Source: a virus
Direction: 5' to 3' (one strand)
DNA length: 64,000 nt
IMG/VR virus record: IMGVR_UViG_3300036760_000069
Coordinates: 23,118-87,117 of that record
This document shows, in pieces, positions 15,401-29,019 of the stretch. Positions within the stretch are counted from its first letter, which is position 1. Every line of letters begins with the position of its first letter. Below the pieces are notes generated by a model that saw only the letters and a program-made list of their open reading frames with translations, ran no database searches and was not told the DNA's origin. The position numbers and the translations under genes are program-made.

Positions 15401-18400
15401 GAGATCGGTTGCAGACCCTTCTTGGCCTTGCGAACGCGAGCATCAATAGTCGGATTGGCCGATCTGAACCAGCCAGGCTTTGGCCCCTCGTTCACCTCCT
15501 TCCCGAGCGGCACGCCGCCACGCTCATTGAAGCGGCGCATCTTGGAGATACCCTCGTTCGGCACCCAGGCGAGGATGGCCTTGACGCCCTTGTTGATCGC
15601 AGCGTACTGCCGGCGGCGGCCGTCGAGAGCTTCGCCGCCTTCGCCGTCAATGATGATCGGGTACTTCCCGGTCGGCGTCTCGGTGGTCAGCTCGAGTGTC
15701 TTAGGGTTGACCGCCTTCAGCGTCCACTTGTCGCCGTACCCGCTGATGCCGTGGAGGTCGTTATAGTCGAGCTTGCCGAAGGAGTCCTTCAGGGGGAGGG
15801 TGTCGAGGTAGTCCTCGAACTCGGCGCGGGTGAGCGTGTCGCCTTGGACAGGCTGGCCTCTCTTGGCGCGACGATCAGGTAGTGCGGCGCGGGATGATAC
15901 CGCTTGGGCCGGACGCTGACGGCGGCCTGGTAGAGGGATTTGGGATTGTGCCCCGCCGCCTTCGCCTCCTTCAGGATGTGCCGCACCGAGTCCGCGTCCA
16001 CGAAATCGTTCATGGCCGGTGCTAATCTTCTCAAAAACGTCATGTGATTCTTCACCCTGAAAGGGTTTGAGTGTGTCGACGTCAGCGGCAATTTGTGCAA
16101 GGAGAGTTTTGGCACCATTGGGGCCTCCCATGTCGCCCAGCATCACCTCAAGGGCGGCGGCGCTTTCCTTGATCGTGCGGGCTTGATTGTAACTGTTGAT
16201 GGCGGCGAACGCTTCATTGTGCGGGCGCACGGACTGATGACTGATTTCATGCACCGCCGTCGAGATCACCATGGCGGCAAACTCTTTCGCCAGATTCTCC
16301 GGCGGAATCCGTCCGTTCAGCACATGCCCATTGACATCCTGGTAGATGTCGTAGGGGTTGATGAGAATGTAGTTGCTCTGGTCGCCCTTGAAGATCGAAC
16401 TCCCGCCGATGTTCACGCCGAGGTACTTGCCGATTCCGATCCCCTGGAAGACGACCGATCCGTACTGATCTCCGTAGGGGATCAGCGCCTTCTGGAGTGG
16501 CGCAAAGGCGCGGGCCATCATCAGCGCGAGTTGCTTGACATGCGGTTGGTCCGCCATCTCCTTCAGGATCTCCGGCGGCACGGTCTGCTCGGTGTCCATG
16601 AACTGGAAGTCCGTGCCGGGGACATCCGGGGCCTCCTCGAACGCCTTGCGGAACGTCTCCCGCTCCACATCCAGCGCGTCGGTGACGAGGTCTTGGATCA
16701 GGTACTTGCGGATGACGTCCTTTACATCGCCGCGCAACTTCTCCCGGTTCGTCGTGAAGGGGTAGCCCGTCTGCCCCGGCGTGCGGCGCGACCGGATGTT
16801 GGCGAGGATGGTATGCGGGAGCTTGAGCTTGTGCCCTTTGCCGAAGCTGACGTTGATCGTGAACTGGTAGAGGCCGTTGTTCAGGATCTGCACCTTGCCT
16901 GTCTCCATCTCGGCGGTGCCTTCCGCTGCGGAGAAGTCCACCTCGCCGCCCTGGAACTCCAGCGTGCGTGTCCGGGCCACGCCCATCGCCTTCCAGTTCT
17001 TCTCGGGGTTGATCTCCAAGCCCCCGATCGAGGCCGAGAGCTTGAGCGGCATCTGGTGAAAGGCCGTGACGTTCTCCAGCCACTTGCGAATCGCCGGCGT
17101 ATCGAACTCCATCTTGTCCGGGTACTTGAGCCGGACACGGGTGCCTGGGGTCGCGTCGGGATCGGCCGCCTTGATCGTGGCGGTCAGGCCCTTCTCCTGG
17201 TTCAGCCAGTCGGCCCCGGACCCGCTTAGATGCGTCTCAACCATGCCACGGGCCGGATCGTAGGCGACCGTCTTGATGTCGATGTTGTCGGCCCCGGCGA
17301 AGATGACCACCTTGGCGACCCCGAACATGCCGGCGGCGTCTTCAGTCTTCTTGCTCCCGCCAAAGTCCACCAGCTCCTTGAACGCCACATCAGGGAGCAT
17401 CCCGGTTCCCGTGTCGTCAATCGTGATCTTGTGATCGTCCGGGAAGACCTCGATCCGCACCATGGCCCCCGCTTTGTCGGTCAGCCCGCGGGTGCCGTCC
17501 GTGGCGTTCTGCACCAGCTCCTTGACGATGACCTTGGAGGGATGCTCGGAGTACAGGCCCTCGCCCATGGCCTTGATGCGGTTCGGGTCGATGCCGGCGG
17601 CGGCCCCGTGCCCACCCTCCTCTTTGACGACCTTGATATAGGAAACATCAGCACGCCCATATTGTGTATCTAACACGACCATCGCTGGGAACGACTTCGC
17701 CCCCAGTAACTTCAGCGCGTCGAAGCGGTGGCCGCCTTCCAACACATACGGGCCTGCCTTACTCCCATCCTCGACGACGATCAGCGGTTCGATTTCACCA
17801 GACTCCTTGATCGTGTTCGCAAGAGCTTCGACCTTGTGCTTCTCTGTCCGGGAATAGAATGAAGGCTTTCCATCGTCTTGAAATGCGGAGATCGGCACCT
17901 CGCGTACACCGTCAAGTATTTCGTACTTCGTCAGGCTGGCCTTAATGGAGGACTGGTTGGACGCCTCGCCCACCACCCGGCGCCCATCAACCACATTACC
18001 GGCCCGCTTGAACTTTGTCTTGAACGCCTTCATGTGGCTGGTGATCTCGCCCTGCCCCATCTCGGAATCCACGATCTCGGCGACGGGGTGGTTCGCCACG
18101 ATCTTTTCAAAGGCCGAGGCCCCCTTCTCGCCCGTCGGGATGAAGATGCGCGTCTTGAACTGGATGATCTCGCGGAACGCCCCGGCGGCCTCCAGCTCCT
18201 TCCACGCCCGCTCGACCCCGTTGCCCACGATCTCGATGCGCGTCTCGCCGGCGACGGTCTTGCGCTCGAACCGCCACCCGTTGACCAGCGCGATCTTGCT
18301 CCGCTTCTTGAGGATGGTGTCCATGGCCTGCGCGGGCGTCAGCGTCGGCAAGTCCACCGAGGCCCCCAGCCGGCGGAGAACAGCCGACACATCGCCCTCC

Positions 18401-21400
18401 CGGACCACCCGCCCCAGATACCGCTTGCCGGTGTCGTCCTGGACGCGCATGACTCGGACATGGTCCTGCGGGAGCCTGTCCCATATCGGGAGCAAGGTGC
18501 CGGAAATCAGATGCAGGGGTTCCTCGCGGTAGGGTGGATGCGTGTCAATCGTCTTCTTCCAGAGGGCTTTGCCGGCGTCTGGATTGATCGCCGCGTAGTG
18601 CTTGCTCAGGCCGTCCTCGTCCACATAGTAGTACGTCTCGGCGACGGGGCTGATGAGGCGGAAGTGTTTGTTGACGCCTCCCGTTTTCGGGTCCGTGCGC
18701 GTTCCGGTATAGACCGAGGCGAAGACCTTCTCGGTCTTGTTGCTCTGGACGTACCCCTGAAAGCCCTCCTTCTTCTCGACCTCCTTGGTCTGGACGAAGT
18801 TCACATCATGCTTGGTGTCCATCGAGACCATCGACGTTGTGGCGCCGCTGATCGGATCGCGGTAGACCTGTTGTTCCTTGATCGTCTTCACGCTGCGAGC
18901 CTTGTACGTTTCGAGACCCACATCGAGTTGTCCGAGCGAGGCCGCGTGGTCGATCGCCTGCTCCATGCGCTCGCTGAAAGCATCGAACACGGCGTTTTGA
19001 TCGTGGATCTCCAAGGCCAGAATCCGATTAAGAAACTGCGGGACTTTCGGGATCTTGTCCTCGTTGATGGACCCATCATCGGCGACAAGGCCCGTCAGCC
19101 CCATCTTGCCCTCGATCATCTCCTTGAAGTCCACGGTCGGGACTTCCCCGCGATGGGCGTCCAACACCAGTGCCCGCACCGCGCCTTGCGCGTATTTGTT
19201 TTCAAGGTTGTCTTTGGCGTTGATGAGGCCTGAGCTGCCCGTCTTGCGCTCGCCCTTGGTCATGGCCCCAAGCTGATCCAACCGGCGGCCGATGGTCGAG
19301 ATAAACCGCTTGTGCCCTTTCAGGTTCGTCATCACCAGCACATAATGCGGGGCATTGGCCTCGTTCGTGCGGTGTGAACGGCCCAGCCCTTGAATGAACT
19401 TTTCCGCCCGCCAGCCAGGTTGCACGCCATAGTGCCAGCGTTGCCGCTGGTTCTTGATACGCCGATCCGAATGGAAGCTGCGCCCAGTGCCGCCGGCGTC
19501 TGAAAAGACAAGGATCGACTTCTTATCAGCAAGGTATTCGTCTACCTCATGGGCGGCGAGCGAGGGTGAACGAGACTGGATCACCGTCTTCTCGCGCCCC
19601 AGATTGTCTTTGAGGCGCACCACGCGGCGGCTCCGACCCGTGACTTCCGCCACGGCGTCCGGCCCAAAAGTGTTGATGATGAACTCCAGCGGGCCTTCGG
19701 GTACCTTCAGCGACCCGACCGAGAGAAGCATGTCCTGCTTGAGCTGGATGGCGTCCTGGTTCTGCACGGGGTTGCCATCATGGTCCAGCACGGGGCGAGA
19801 CCGGATGTTCCCTTGCTCGTCCTGGTACTGCTCGTACTGTTGCGTCGGAAAGGACTTCTCCAGAAACTGCATCAGGGCATCGCGTGGCGTGAGATCGAGA
19901 TTTTCCAGATCGCCGTCTTCTTGCTCGGCGTTTTGGATCTGCCGCTCCATGCCCGCCTCGTTGGTGTTGACGAGTTGAGCGATAATGGCCTTGCCATCCT
20001 TGATCTTCGCTTCCATATCGGCGATGACGGTGGGCATCTGCATGGCCGTCAGCACCTGATTGAAGAACCGGAGTTCCGTGCCCCAGAAATTGGAGAGCAA
20101 GGTGGACTTGGCGCCCGCGTTCTTGGCCTTCCCGCCCTCGGTGACGCCCGTGAGTTCGAGGGCCTGATTGATGTTTGCCAATACCACCTGCCATGCCCGC
20201 GCCAGTCCGTTGTAGATGTCTTCTTGTTCTGGCGTCAACACATGCTCAAGAGTGCTATATGTGACCTCTGAGAAGTCGAGCGAGCGAGCGATATAGACGC
20301 CCATGGCCTTCATGTCACGGGCGACCACTTCCATCGCACCCAAACCGCCTTCCGTGATCTTCGCCGAGAAATCATTCTGGTCAGGGAAGGCCGTACCGGG
20401 CCCCCACAGACCGAGCCGTTCAGCATACCCCAGCGTGTCTACCGAGTTCGCGCCGGTCGCCGAGGCATACACAATGCGAGCCTTCGGCACCTGCTTGCGG
20501 AGGTCAAGGGCCGCAAGAGCCTGGATGGAGGCTTGCTGGTGGATGCCACGCGCCCCCATCGACTGCGTGGTCTTTTGCATGTTATGGGCTTCGTCGAACA
20601 CGATCACGCCATCGAAGTCTTTGCCGAGCCACGCTAGGATCTGATTGACCCGCGATTGTTTGGGCTGGTTCGTTTTCTTGTCTGTAATGGGAATGACCTT
20701 GCCGGTCTTATCCGTCATTAAGTTGGAGCGGATCGTGGCATAGGTGGTGAACATAATGCCCTTGGGTTGGTCGATCGGTTCGCCGAGTTTGGTCTTGCCG
20801 AGTTCAAAAACTTGGCCCTTGTCGCCGCCAATATCCACCCAGTCGCGCTTGGCGTCGGCTATGAGCCTAGAAGACTCCGAGACCCAGATGGCTTTCTCGC
20901 GCCCGTTGCGGAAGTTATCCAGAATGACGGCGGAGATCTGCCGGCCCTTCCCGACCCCCGTGCCATCGCCCAAGAAGAAGCCCTTGCGCGTCCCGTCTGA
21001 CAGAAATAACTCATGGGCCTGTCCTGCGTACACGGGCGTCTCGAGCTGGGCCAGCGAGAGGGCGCCGGAATCAATCAGATCCTGCGGCAGGTTGGGCGTG
21101 TAGGTCGGATCGGGCGGGAGCGTGTCCGCCATGGCCGCCGACTCTACCAGTTTGCCAGGGTGCGGTTTGGCACCAGGAATCCGCACCTTGGGTGGTTGGT
21201 ACTCGTCGTAGACGGCGTCGGTGAGTTCTTTGGTCGTGCTGGGGAACTTGGATTCAGGTTCGCTGGAAGCGACGACCGTTATCCCGGACTGAACGGGTAT
21301 ATGGGCGGGTACGTTCCCTTCATCCGCGGGTCGTCCCGCAGGCGCAGGTCGAGGGCCTCCAGTACCTTCACCGCCGCCCGCCTTGGGCTCATGGCCTTGG

Positions 21401-24400
21401 ATAGGTCGCTCTCCTCCAGCAACGGGGAGTCCGGGCTCTCTGGGCTGTTGAGGAACCACTCCAGCGCCCTCTTTCCGTCCGGGTACGCGAGGAGGCCGTC
21501 CAGTTTCTGTCGCAGGATGTCGCTGTCCCCCCCCGGCGGTGTGGTCAACCGGCCGTGGTCGAGTCCCCACATCGCCAGTTGGAACAGGTACGGCAGATCC
21601 GGGTCCGGTTTGGCCCCCGCCACCTTCAGCCACCGCTTGGCCTCCACGTTGAGCGGGTGGTCGTTGTTCGTCTGGTCGGGTCGCTTGTCCTTCAACGCTG
21701 GGGCGGTCATCGCGCACCTCCTTGAGGAGATTGAGGGCTTCATAGGGGTTCTCGGCCTTCCCTGTTACCACCTCTACTGAAGGAGAGGGGGCCACTTTAT
21801 CGAAAATCAAGATGCGGTTGTCAAAATCAGTGCCGTATTTCTTGTACCCCTTGCCGGACATGACCACGCTGGCACGAAGCTGGTACTTCTTGGCGAGGGC
21901 GTCGATGGCGCGGGAGACCCCCTCGGACTGCCCCATGAACCCCTCGCCGATCAGGGCGACGAGTCGCCCATTCGGGGCCAGGAGCTTCAGGGCCTGGTCG
22001 ATGTGTTTGCTGATGGCGTTGGTACTCTTGCGCTCGCCCGTGATCCGGCCGGCCGTCGAGGAAAACGGCGGGTTCATCACGATCACCGTGGGCGTGACTT
22101 TGAGGATGTTGGCAATCTGTTCGGCGTTCTCCGTCGTCACCTTGTTGAAGACGATGGTATTGAGGAGTCCGGCCCGCCGCGGCGAAAGTTCGTTGACATC
22201 CACATCGGCCCCGAAGTTCTTGGCGAAGATCGCCAGCCCACCCAAGCCGGCACTTGGCTCCAGCATGACATCCTTGGGGGTGATGTGCGCCGCCCAGTTC
22301 ATCACGAACGCCAGATCCGGGGGGGTCGAGAACTGTTGGAACTCGACCATCTCCGGCGTGCGTCTCGTCCCCTGCGACGGGATCTTGTCCATGATCTGCT
22401 CACGCAGGTAGTTGAGCATCTCCCGCGCTTTTATGAGGCTATAGGTGGTGGGTCTGTAGACGCCATCAGGGCCCAGCATCTCGCCGATGAAGCGGTTGAT
22501 CCCCAGCTCGAGGGCATCATTCAGATCCTTGACGGTGTAGGTGCCGTCCGCCTGTGTGCCCCCAAAGTCCTCATTGGCTCGCGTGACCAGTTGATCCATG
22601 CTGAACGACAGTACACCAGGCGCCGTGTCCTCTTTCAGGCGTTCCTCGACAAAGTAGGCGATGTTCATACTCGCGCCGACGATCTTCTGCTCCGTGGTCG
22701 CTGGAGCTTCAACCGCCGGGATCGTGGGCTCGTCGGGTAAGACCGCGCCGCGCCCGCCCTTGGTGAGCAGGTCCGCCTTCTCCTGATCGGTCATGGCGGG
22801 CTTCGGAGCGGGCAGGCTGGGGGTCGTCGGGCTGGGCGTCTTCGGTTCGCTGGCCTTGACCTGTGAATCGTAGAAGGCATCCAACGCAGACTTCTCGCTC
22901 CCGATCGGACGATCAGGCGTCCCCGGCATGAAGCCCCATTTTGAGCCATCTGGGCGGTAGATGTTCCATTCCTTGCCGGTGCGCCGTGCAGTCCACCCTG
23001 CGGCGAGAAATTCATCCTTGGTCATGTCGGCAGGGTTGGCCGTTGGGACGGTCTTTGTCTCTGGCACCAGCCCAGGCGTCTGAGCTTCGGCCTTCTGCGG
23101 ATACTCGTCAGGGTGGTGCGCGAGCTTGTACTTCGCGTCCTCGATCGCCCGCTCCCATCGTGCCCAGTCGTCCGGGTAGCCGTGCGTTTCAAAGTCGTCG
23201 AGGCCGGCTTGCGCGACTTCGATGATTCGGTATGGATCGCCAGCATTCTCGGCCTTTGTCAGGGCGCGCTTGTGCTTGCGGTAGAGATCCTGCCGGAAGT
23301 CGCCCGTGGGGGCCTTGTCCTCGTCCTTCCAGCCGCCGGGAGGGGGCTTGTCGGCGACGGTCGGACGCTCAGGAGAAGGCAGGCCAGGAGCGGCATGGTG
23401 TTCGGCCTTGGGTGCTTCCGGTTTTGGCTCCTCTGGTGTTTTCTTGGCGACAGGTCGATAGACTTGGATCCCCTCATCCCCTCGTTGAATAGCTTCGTAG
23501 AGACGGTTATTGCCATCAATCACCTCGCCCGCATGATCCAGCACAATCGGGCCATTCGTCATTGACCCTCGCGGAACAAACTCGGCGCCATCCCAGAGCA
23601 TCTCGTTACCTTTACGAAGTGATTCGATCGGCACTCTTGCCTGTTCCCACTGTGAATCGGTGAGATGGGCGTCCTCGTTCTTGTTTGTTTTACGTCCCAG
23701 CTCCGTGTACCCGATAGCGTTCTGAGCGGACTCTGGGAGTTCCTTAAAAGCCAGCGTCTTTATCGATTTGATTTCCTGTTTGGGGATTGGGAATCCTGGT
23801 GCGGCAGGGCGTTCGGCTTTGACTTCTGGTTTTGGCTCCTCTTTTGAGGGCGCAGAACCGGAACCTGCCGGCATCGTCAGCGCATCCTGCACCTGCTTCT
23901 TCTGCTCATCGCTCAGGCCGTTGTACGGGCGCCCGAACAAACCACGTGCTGCCTCGTTCGGCGTGGCATACTTCTTGGGCGAGAGGGCCTCATTCGCCGT
24001 CTGCCCCTTCCCGACCGTGAAGTTCGCCTCGGCGGCGGCGGCGGCCTCCTCCATCGACGGGTAGGTGCCAAGCGTGTCCTTACCGCGAATGTCCCACGCC
24101 TCAAACTGCCCGTCGTCGCGCTCAATGACCATGGCCTTCGGCTTCTCAGGATTGCCGCCGGCCCAGATGTAGGTCGATTCGCCAGGTACGGCCCCATGTT
24201 CCCACCCCGCCGGCAAGCCTGTCGTTGGTTCATTCGCCGGAGCCACACCTTGCTCAGTTTGGGGGGCTGGCAGGCCAGGAACAGGGGTAGGTTGAATGTC
24301 GGAGACCCTATCCGCACGCTTCTTCAGGAACGGTTCGCGTTGAACTGGAGCCAATTCTGGCGGAATGGCGGCTACTTCGGCCTTGGCCCGCGCATTGACC

Positions 24401-27772: not shown

Positions 27773-28190
27773 TGGCCGCCCTCGATATTTGATGTCTATT
27801 CCGGTCGCACATTCGACATCGACGCCTCACTCCTTGATGGATAGCCGTATTGGCTTTGTCGTAAACGTGACCTTTCGGACACGCTTTTTTCGCTGCATTC
27901 ATAGCCGCAATCGTATCGCCTCGGAGGACGTTTACTTTTCCTGTCACAACCTCTAGATGATCTGGATTGACACAGCGGATGTTCCGACATAGATGGTCGA
28001 TCTGTAGGCCGTCAGGTATCGGCCCGTGCGCCAGTTCGTAAGCGAAGCGATGCGCGTATACCTGTCGCGTGCCGTTCCAAAATACGCCGTACCGGTTGCC
28101 ATTGGCAGCGCCTGTCCAGACATCGCAGTCCCTGATACTTTGTACGAACAAGGCAAAACGCTCTGCTGCTGGTTTATGTGGTCTGCTCAC
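27765..28190 (-). CDS. HNH homing-type endonuclease, paralogue of 9785-10219
   Basis: The 141-residue protein shares [33 protein letters not shown] and CPKGHVYDKANT with the other HNH gene, with a distal CRMC knuckle. It is AT-richer than its neighbours and sits between the PAPS-reductase-like gene and the YkgJ-like gene, overlapping both ends slightly, as expected of an inserted homing gene. Confidence 0.85.
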   Translation of the reverse strand: MSRPHKPAAERFALFVQSIRDCDVWTGAANGNRYGVFWNGTRQVYAHRFAYELAHGPIPDGLQIDHLCRNIRCVNPDHLEVVTGKVNVLRGDTIAAMNAAKKACPKGHVYDKANTAIHQGVRRRCRMCDRNRHQISRAANA

Positions 28191-29019
28191 GCATTCCTTC
28201 TCCGACTGGGGTACAGTATTTCAGCGTCTTAAACAGAGCTGCACGGGTCGCTTCGTGCTCCTCAAAGGAGCGGGCAATGTTCGGAATCAGCGCCCCGTCG
28301 CGTTTGGGGCAGGATACTTGCTCACCACGATGGTTGGAATTTAAACAATTGTAGCATGTGACCATGCGATCAGGATTGACACTTTCGATATTATCTACAT
28401 ACCTGCGCCGATCGAATGGAAGATCGTAATGAGCGATATAGGCCCACACATCATCATCAGTCCAATCACTTAGCGGGAAGGCGACCATCGTGGTCGCGTA
28501 CTGCACGCAGGGCATCATCGGCCCCGACCGATCCGCCAAATGAAACGGGTCGCCTTCCTTCGATCCCATGATCGTCAAATCCCATGGGTAGTCGGTGGCG
28601 AGGGCCTTGGGGCGGAGCAGGAAATCGTCAATGGCGCAGAAGTACCGCTCGCCGTCCGACGGCTTGTACGCCCGGATGCCGTCCACCATGATGATGTTGT
28701 CGCTCAGGCCACACCGATAGAAGTCCAGAATCTCAAAGTAGTCCCCTTGCTGGTATTCGATGGTCGCCGACGGCATCAGGTCGAACACCTCCAGATCCCA
28801 CTCGCGGGCCACTTGGTAGGCATGTTCAAACTGCGCCTGAAACTTGGCGTGGCGAAAGAACAGCACCGGCACCTTCTTTTTGATCCGCAAGGCGAGATGC
28901 AGGGCGACAATGGAGTCCTTGCCGAAACTACAACAGACCACAGGCCGCGCCGACGTCGACAGATGGGCCGCCATCCGTGCGAGGGTCCGAGATTCCATCT
29001 CTTTCATCATCGTGTCCAT
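28174..29019 (-). CDS. PAPS reductase / ATP-PP-loop family protein
   Basis: The PP-loop SFGKDS (31-36) and the DDDVWAYIAHYDLPF helix region mark the phosphoadenosine phosphosulphate reductase family. Cysteines in VTCYNCLNSNHRGEQVSC near the C-terminus could hold an Fe-S cluster, as in phage DndC-like relatives. Phage versions have been linked to sulphur assimilation, tRNA thiolation or DNA phosphorothioation, but the substrate here is unknown. It lies within a virion-protein module, two bases after gene 29022-29909. Confidence 0.8.
   Translation of the reverse strand: MDTMMKEMESRTLARMAAHLSTSARPVVCCSFGKDSIVALHLALRIKKKVPVLFFRHAKFQAQFEHAYQVAREWDLEVFDLMPSATIEYQQGDYFEILDFYRCGLSDNIIMVDGIRAYKPSDGERYFCAIDDFLLRPKALATDYPWDLTIMGSKEGDPFHLADRSGPMMPCVQYATTMVAFPLSDWTDDDVWAYIAHYDLPFDRRRYVDNIESVNPDRMVTCYNCLNSNHRGEQVSCPKRDGALIPNIARSFEEHEATRAALFKTLKYCTPVGEGMREQTT

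Follow-up and report, generated by a model that had tools for sequence, protein, structure and literature searches.

The stretch of viral DNA considered here (the window; 64,000 nucleotides, positions 23,118 to 87,117 of IMG/VR record IMGVR_UViG_3300036760_000069) contains a giant polyvalent gene in which a DNA methyltransferase (MTase) is fused to a Strawberry-notch (Sno)-type helicase. Comparison with related loci indicates that the linker between these two domains very probably carries a second gene, which is conserved, read out of frame and started independently, and that the giant mRNA would thus yield a second product. That the nested gene itself is real is next to certain from these comparisons. 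What the sequence shows directly is the gene with its start signal, the conservation of the gene, a reversal of selection in the linker and the restriction of the gene to the MTase-helicase context.

The nested open reading frame (ORF) lies on the same strand as the giant ORF, is fully enclosed by it and occupies the +1 frame. At its start the minus strand reads CTCAAGGAGGTGCGCGATGACC, in which AAGGAGG is followed after six bases by ATG. The preliminary description had pointed to this Shine-Dalgarno (SD) sequence and to the 144 codons that the ATG opens in a different frame, and every detail was right. It was also accurate in calling the overlapping part of the giant protein a Gly/Pro/Arg linker, as residues ~1523-1666 are rich in these amino acids and contain nearly no hydrophobic residues. 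An open frame in a single genome is weak evidence. When the synonymous codons of the giant frame were reshuffled in the window only, the nested frame was open in 14% of trials, and additional +1 and +2 ORFs of 70-278 codons are present in the same giant gene. Of the candidate +1/+2 ORFs with 70 codons or more, 16 in number, only the nested ORF has many relatives (26 loci, E<=1e-4). A 71-codon +1 ORF inside the conserved helicase has 5 related loci, and these matches are probably a mere trace of the conserved giant frame. It is the comparative data that exclude chance.

No close relative was found when the nested protein alone was used to query viral contigs and phage records. Relatives were gathered solely through the helicase and the MTase, and the nested frame was then read at each locus. 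The loci (numbered here with an L) came from 16 + 3 viral loci, from plasmid and phage records, and from at least 80 genome and at least 80 viral loci with a helicase alignment. The resulting 188 loci all contain the helicase, and in 182 the MTase shares its frame. At 123 loci an ORF of at least 50 codons opens from a start codon close to the MTase end. Five of these (L025, L048, L050, L058 and L068) are members of a sister clade and were set aside as chance; four run 142-214 nt into the helicase, three start with TTG and one has only 69 codons. The remaining 118 loci were collapsed at 95% DNA identity to 95 distinct relatives, the window included. One further locus, L031, has a run of N within the nested gene and was used in the tree only.

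A +1 ORF is present at the equivalent place in 95/95 relatives, starting with ATG in 92 and GTG in 3, with a length of 87-155 codons (median 123). The start is at an identical offset in 91/95; for the 20 loci used to train the MTase profile this position (-8) is in part a product of the training, which is not so for the remaining loci. With the synonymous codons of the giant frame redrawn, the nested frame would be expected to be open in 26.4 of the relatives, and the third frame is open across the same span in none of the 95. The nested frame is open even where the third frame is full of stops (e.g., L004 and L011). The conservation across homologous loci that the preliminary description had put forward as a check is therefore found in every distinct relative. 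The refuting case that it named, a kept linker with a broken nested frame, does not occur in the clade with the nested gene, where the two loci that lost the gene while keeping the fused domains (L024 and L173) have linkers of just 33 and 159 nt.

The start signal is conserved along with the frame. An SD-like motif is located 5-16 nt before the start in 92/95 relatives. In the giant protein the same DNA encodes the end of the MTase, most often as the motif L-E-G-[V/I]-R-[N/D]-[D/E]-R, so that one DNA sequence is both this motif and the SD plus ATG. Codon choice at the SD site is skewed toward the signal: Glu is encoded by GAG in 49/59 cases, where 27.6 would be expected, and Gly by GGG or GGA in 40/58 (21.2 expected). 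The Asn/Asp codon ends in AT in 88/88 cases compared with 36.4 expected, a count that is partly circular as a start codon at this place was a selection criterion. Translation from the nested gene's own start is, on these sequence features, highly probable.

Codon-position identities were used to determine which frame selection acts on. The comparison includes 18 ungapped pairs, two of 20 having been omitted because their flanks could not be aligned without gaps. Identities at giant-frame codon positions 1, 2 and 3 of the linker are 0.591, 0.755 and 0.852, and the flanking controls in the same pairs give 0.858, 0.914 and 0.520 for the MTase and 0.850, 0.928 and 0.507 for the helicase. Since the order in the linker is reversed relative to both flanks, the nested frame is the constrained one; re-read in that frame, the linker gives 0.755, 0.852 and 0.591, the normal pattern of a protein gene. 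Among pairs with more than 20% nested identity, the identity of the nested protein exceeds that of the linker in every divergence band (e.g., 0.70 compared with 0.48), as determined from 4,183 pairs with at least 80 aligned codons in an alignment that was built on the nested proteins and hence leans toward them. The synonymous codon usage of the nested frame is near that of the giant gene (-0.113) and that of the linker is unusual (-0.415), with the nested frame scoring better in 70/95 relatives. The compositions also differ, with 15.6% Leu and 3.4% Gly in the nested proteins versus 2.4% Leu and 19.6% Gly in the linkers. By these substitution patterns the nested frame is under purifying selection, and the Gly/Arg linker follows from it as a shadow. 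The proposal that the linker is shaped by the nested gene thus holds up. The accompanying suggestion of de novo overprinting onto a linker is not supported: codon usage and rates suggest that a small gene was there first and that the giant frame came to run across it, the linker being the frame that merely needed to be read through. We would guess that this read-through perhaps arose when separate MTase and helicase genes fused.

The distribution of the nested gene follows the fused domains. In a tree of helicases with 160 rows, built by a fast method and containing several long branches, presence of the gene requires 4 changes compared with 50.2 when shuffled. A sister clade (61 rows), made up mainly of elements from Alphaproteobacteria and Nostoc, is without it. 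The median linker is 393 nt in loci with the gene and 228 nt in the 63 loci, L028 not counted, that lack it and encode MTase and helicase in a single frame. Three rows of the nested clade are without the gene, all on long branches: L024 and L173, and L099, in which the MTase and helicase are separate genes. The gene had been called a rare case, which does not fit its near universality within its clade. Carriers include phages, plasmids and bacterial genomes from Proteobacteria, delta-type bacteria and Firmicutes, with Methylobacter, Nitrosomonas, Halochromatium, Desulfovibrionaceae, Lachnospiraceae and Defluviitaleaceae among the record titles. Plasmid MEALZ_p of Methylotuvimicrobium alcaliphilum 20Z also carries a relative. 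In the annotation of NC_016108 and NZ_CP064652 only the giant gene is listed at the locus, the plasmid gene tables being incomplete.

The conservation of the nested family is too low for a collection-wide scan with its profile, and searches were made in sets of genomes. In the first three sets, 17/18 loci found sit between an MTase and a helicase. The two later sets returned some of these loci again, and both of their new strong in-family matches (L216 and L219) have this position as well. Three other matches (L217, L218 and L220) were dropped as their translations read as a Crp-like regulator, a portal-like protein and a YqeY-like protein. Profile searches of 201, 200, 196, 391 and 369 genomes, in partly overlapping sets, gave no stand-alone homologue besides a remnant, L194:1489-1833(-), in which the MTase core and the helicase are gone and the small gene is still open as an intact nested ORF. 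In eight loci (L021, L123, L156, L164, L165, L175, L182 and L185) a further 290-1286 nt separate the stop of the nested gene from the start of the helicase. A distant relative, Bacteroides phage BS-TP4, has a 115-codon +1 ORF in the equivalent linker (L028:3207-3554). It was left out of the count as it has no SD and only an E of 0.033 to the nested family; Bacteroidota rarely use SD sequences.

A family profile grown from eight sequences recruits 87/95 nested proteins at E<1e-3. The preliminary description had remarked that the product reads like a folded protein, and AlphaFold2 agrees: with an alignment of 82 sequences (the 95 minus three plasmid-record loci, the eight unrecruited proteins and two near-copies) it predicts six helices with a mean predicted local distance difference test (pLDDT) score of 84.2 and a predicted template modelling (pTM) score of 0.78. 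An earlier model with 16 sequences gave a pLDDT of 80.8 and a pTM of 0.74. The protein from the window (P0001) matched 0 families in Pfam and PHROGs, and the 82 members had no shared match in Pfam, NCBIfam or PHROGs, only weak single-member ones in each library. A sequence search of the PDB gave no match, and the best Foldseek results were E 0.7 in the PDB (with the 16-sequence model) and E 1.7 in BFVD, where a missing match does not imply a new fold. A structure search of the PDB with VIA-align, made with the second model, returned a sole row (9jfl_A, Z 2.2) and was not used. A resemblance to GatB/YqeY was dropped as it was weak and confined to one of the 82 members (E 0.0024).

Several results weigh against an independently started, conserved protein gene and should be set beside the evidence above. 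The SD-like motif is missing in three relatives (L032, L038 and L122). Of the codon-position pairs, 15/18 come from six related methanotroph-type elements (L021, L022, L023, L033, L034 and L035) and are not independent; of the remaining three, L036-L039 and L131-L167 show the same pattern, and L157-L162, too similar to be very informative, does not contradict it. The family profile fails to recruit 8/95 nested proteins, and 1/95 reversed sequences passes its threshold, so that E<1e-3 is slightly loose. Finally, divergence is much faster in the nested protein than in the helicase, with mean column identities of 18% and 59%, respectively, which would suit a host-directed protein too.

It is proposed that ribosomes on the giant mRNA would initiate a second time at the internal SD and ATG and so make a small, predicted all-helical protein of about 90-155 residues. 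Selection would maintain the nested frame, and the giant protein would need merely a stop-free linker there, whose sequence would be the nested codons spelled one base out of phase. The nested product and the MTase-helicase, coming from one message, would be inherited and produced together. As to function, we tentatively favor an accessory subunit or partner of the MTase-helicase. This is preferred over a host-directed protein because the searched genomes yielded the gene at no other place, because it vanishes together with its linker and because a look-alike nested gene precedes another helicase (see below). A protein that acts on the host, in anti-defense or takeover, and rides the giant gene for space or for protection from loss is rather unlikely, yet it is the strongest of the alternatives. 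Its fast divergence would fit such a role, and passages of Iyer et al. 2017 (PMC5512222) propose that polyvalent proteins act in phage-host conflict. Set against this, the strong matches in the genomes searched are bound to the MTase-helicase context except in the remnant L194, the MTase-helicase persists where gene and linker were lost (L024 and L173), and the unrelated nested gene before another helicase points to the helicase.

It is less probable again that the second frame mainly aids production of the giant protein, with the nested product or the initiating ribosomes helping to fold, pace or regulate translation across the MTase-helicase boundary. The position exactly at a domain boundary and the strict co-inheritance seen on the helicase tree would be expected of such an aid. 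Pacing alone would not, however, keep an amino-acid sequence of ~120 residues with a helical fold, and the sister clade makes the same fused domains without the nested gene.

A programmed +1 frameshift from the MTase, yielding an MTase-nested fusion rather than a separate protein, is very improbable. The nested frame is indeed +1, and an intragenic SD-like sequence can stimulate +1 shifts, as in prfB, so that the SD-like sequence within the giant gene could be such a stimulator. But a start codon opens the frame in 95/95 relatives, with GTG instead of ATG in just three, and a conserved slippery heptamer was not seen in the alignment columns around the start. The nested frame also has an upstream stop within 12 codons in 63/95 relatives, and two codons upstream in 21, which leaves nearly no room for slippage. 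Because these stops lie so close upstream, independent initiation is much likelier than frameshifting.

The chance that a GC-rich, low-complexity linker happens to leave the +1 frame open and that an SD-like string happens to precede the ATG is negligible: the reshuffled window and the other long alternative ORFs would allow it, but not the excess of open frames in the relatives, the closed third frame (with L004 and L011 as its stop-filled cases), the absence within the nested clade of a long linker with stops in the nested frame, or the reversed rates, by which it is already refuted. Equally negligible is a conserved RNA structure with no protein, which could account for conservation at silent sites of the giant frame but not for variation with a coding-frame period (0.76/0.85/0.59 at nested positions 1/2/3) in an element with a start, a stop and homologous proteins.

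Four further phage giant genes were examined in the same manner for ORFs in their alternative frames. A second +1 nested ORF of ~129 codons, with an ATG start and a product that mostly begins M[YFH]Q.P, was found in eight distinct elements: Parlo, ZX1, Skulduggery, 45A6, Vibrio D274, Vibrio 1.232.O, and IMG/VR L222 and L223. The giant genes that carry it are DarB-like. The eight phage records with the helicase of these genes are the same eight records with this ORF, and the annotated ones list only the giant gene at its site. The giant gene of Pseudomonas phage Epa33 (L209) had no ORF like it in the alternative-frame scan. The ORF occupies a low-complexity linker directly before the SF2 helicase, with the MTase after the helicase. 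Parlo and ZX1 have identities at codon positions 1/2/3 of 0.57/0.76/0.78 in the linker versus 0.73/0.76/0.49 downstream, and in the informative pairs of the second family the nested frame is more conserved than the linker; L214 and L215 are too similar for the frames to be separated by protein identity. Two helicases without this linker (L224 and L225) are also without the ORF. A comparison of the two families by hhalign gave a probability of 0.4%, with no detectable sequence homology, and by sequence the second family is apparently unrelated to the first. It resembles the Sno-type nested gene in its +1 frame, its ATG and its place in a low-complexity linker before an SF2 helicase, and differs in that the MTase follows the helicase rather than preceding it. 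It is conceivable, and slightly more doubtful than a partner role for the first family, that phage and plasmid MTase-helicase dyads are two-protein machines whose small partner is hidden out of frame before the helicase motor, an arrangement that would have arisen at least twice with unrelated partners (Sno-type and DarB-like). If so, writing a partner gene into a linker would be a repeatedly used means of tying two proteins to a single transferable locus.

The virus record from which the window comes is 87 kb long, and its structural genes, for a tail protein, an internal virion protein, a head-tail adaptor and a terminase, are podovirus-like. The helicase corresponds to residues 1705-2457 of the giant protein, the MTase domain is also matched by phrog_6263 'DNA methyltransferase' (E 1.9e-10), and other Pfam matches are ParB-like and, weakly, HATPase-like. 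On these domains (PF13872, PF13871 and the DNA MTase PHROGs) the giant gene encodes a Sno-type MTase-helicase polyvalent protein. Another Gly/Arg-rich stretch of the giant protein is located at window 15789-16118(-), where a short segment of the +1 frame, read from an internal ATG (16013), resembles protein; a search for relatives of this segment gave none. A phosphoadenosine phosphosulfate reductase-like gene lies near the giant gene at 28177-29019(-). The coordinates of the features are included in Table 1.

Table 1. Positions of the giant gene, its domains and the nested ORFs (window coordinates unless a locus is given)
Feature	Position	Strand	Basis
Giant polyvalent gene, 4,615 aa	12430..26277	-	ORF translation; Pfam/PHROG domains; encloses the nested gene
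DNA MTase domain, upstream neighbor of the nested gene	21784..22392	-	phrog_9133, residues 1296-1498, E 2.6e-18
Strawberry-notch-type SF2 helicase (AAA_34 + Helicase_C_4), downstream neighbor	18907..21165	-	PF13872 E 1e-111, PF13871 E 9.3e-81
Interdomain linker between MTase and helicase, giant frame	21229..21710	-	Gly/Arg/Pro-rich; codon position 1 most variable and 3 least variable in relatives
Nested gene, 143 aa + stop (144 codons), protein P0001, +1 frame relative to the giant gene	21279..21710	-	Translation; conserved in relatives
Shine-Dalgarno AAGGAGG, 6 nt 5' of the ATG at 21710	21717..21723	-	Sequence
Second-family ORF in Serratia phage Parlo	L208:1686-2072		+1 frame before the helicase
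Second-family ORFs elsewhere	L207:1650-2036; L213:3001-3387; L210:1701-2060; L214, L215, L222, L223		

MTase-helicase polyvalent proteins were described by Iyer et al. 2017, including an example from Methylomonas with SnoC and wHTH (PMC5512222), and the giant gene is like the proteins covered in its passages in that an MTase is fused to a Sno-like SF2 helicase. The word 'overlapping' occurs 0 times in the text of that paper and 'nested' describes hairpins, and its passages on these proteins do not mention a gene in the linker. A search of the open-access PubMed Central literature found no report of a nested gene in MTase-helicase polyvalent genes. The 'disordered linkers' of giant mobile-element proteins would have to be read differently in the light of the nested gene, whose product could be tested as a candidate for a component so far missing from the DarB/Sno anti-restriction machinery. 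The second family is present in isolated phages, such as Skulduggery of Pseudomonas fluorescens SBW25, and is thus accessible at the bench.

Long same-strand overlapping genes are routinely missed by annotation, and few well-supported old examples are known. The nested gene combines 95 distinct copies, a reversal of selection with flanking controls, and losses that take the linker along. Known out-of-frame nested genes of phages include phiX174 E in D and lambda Rz1 in Rz. They are like the gene discussed here in being on the same strand, enclosed by another gene, in a different frame and with their own start. The present gene differs in that it is hosted by a frame under weaker constraint than its own, one that spells a low-complexity stretch joining two enzyme domains, and in its spread, which takes in phages, plasmids and the genomes of bacteria from several groups. 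Should the product indeed be a subunit, a further parallel is Cas11, a small subunit made from an in-frame internal start within the large effector genes cas8 or cas10d, where a second protein likewise comes from inside the gene of the large subunit. Cas11 is an in-frame part of the large protein, whereas the nested gene is read in another frame and its product is unrelated in sequence to the protein that hosts it.

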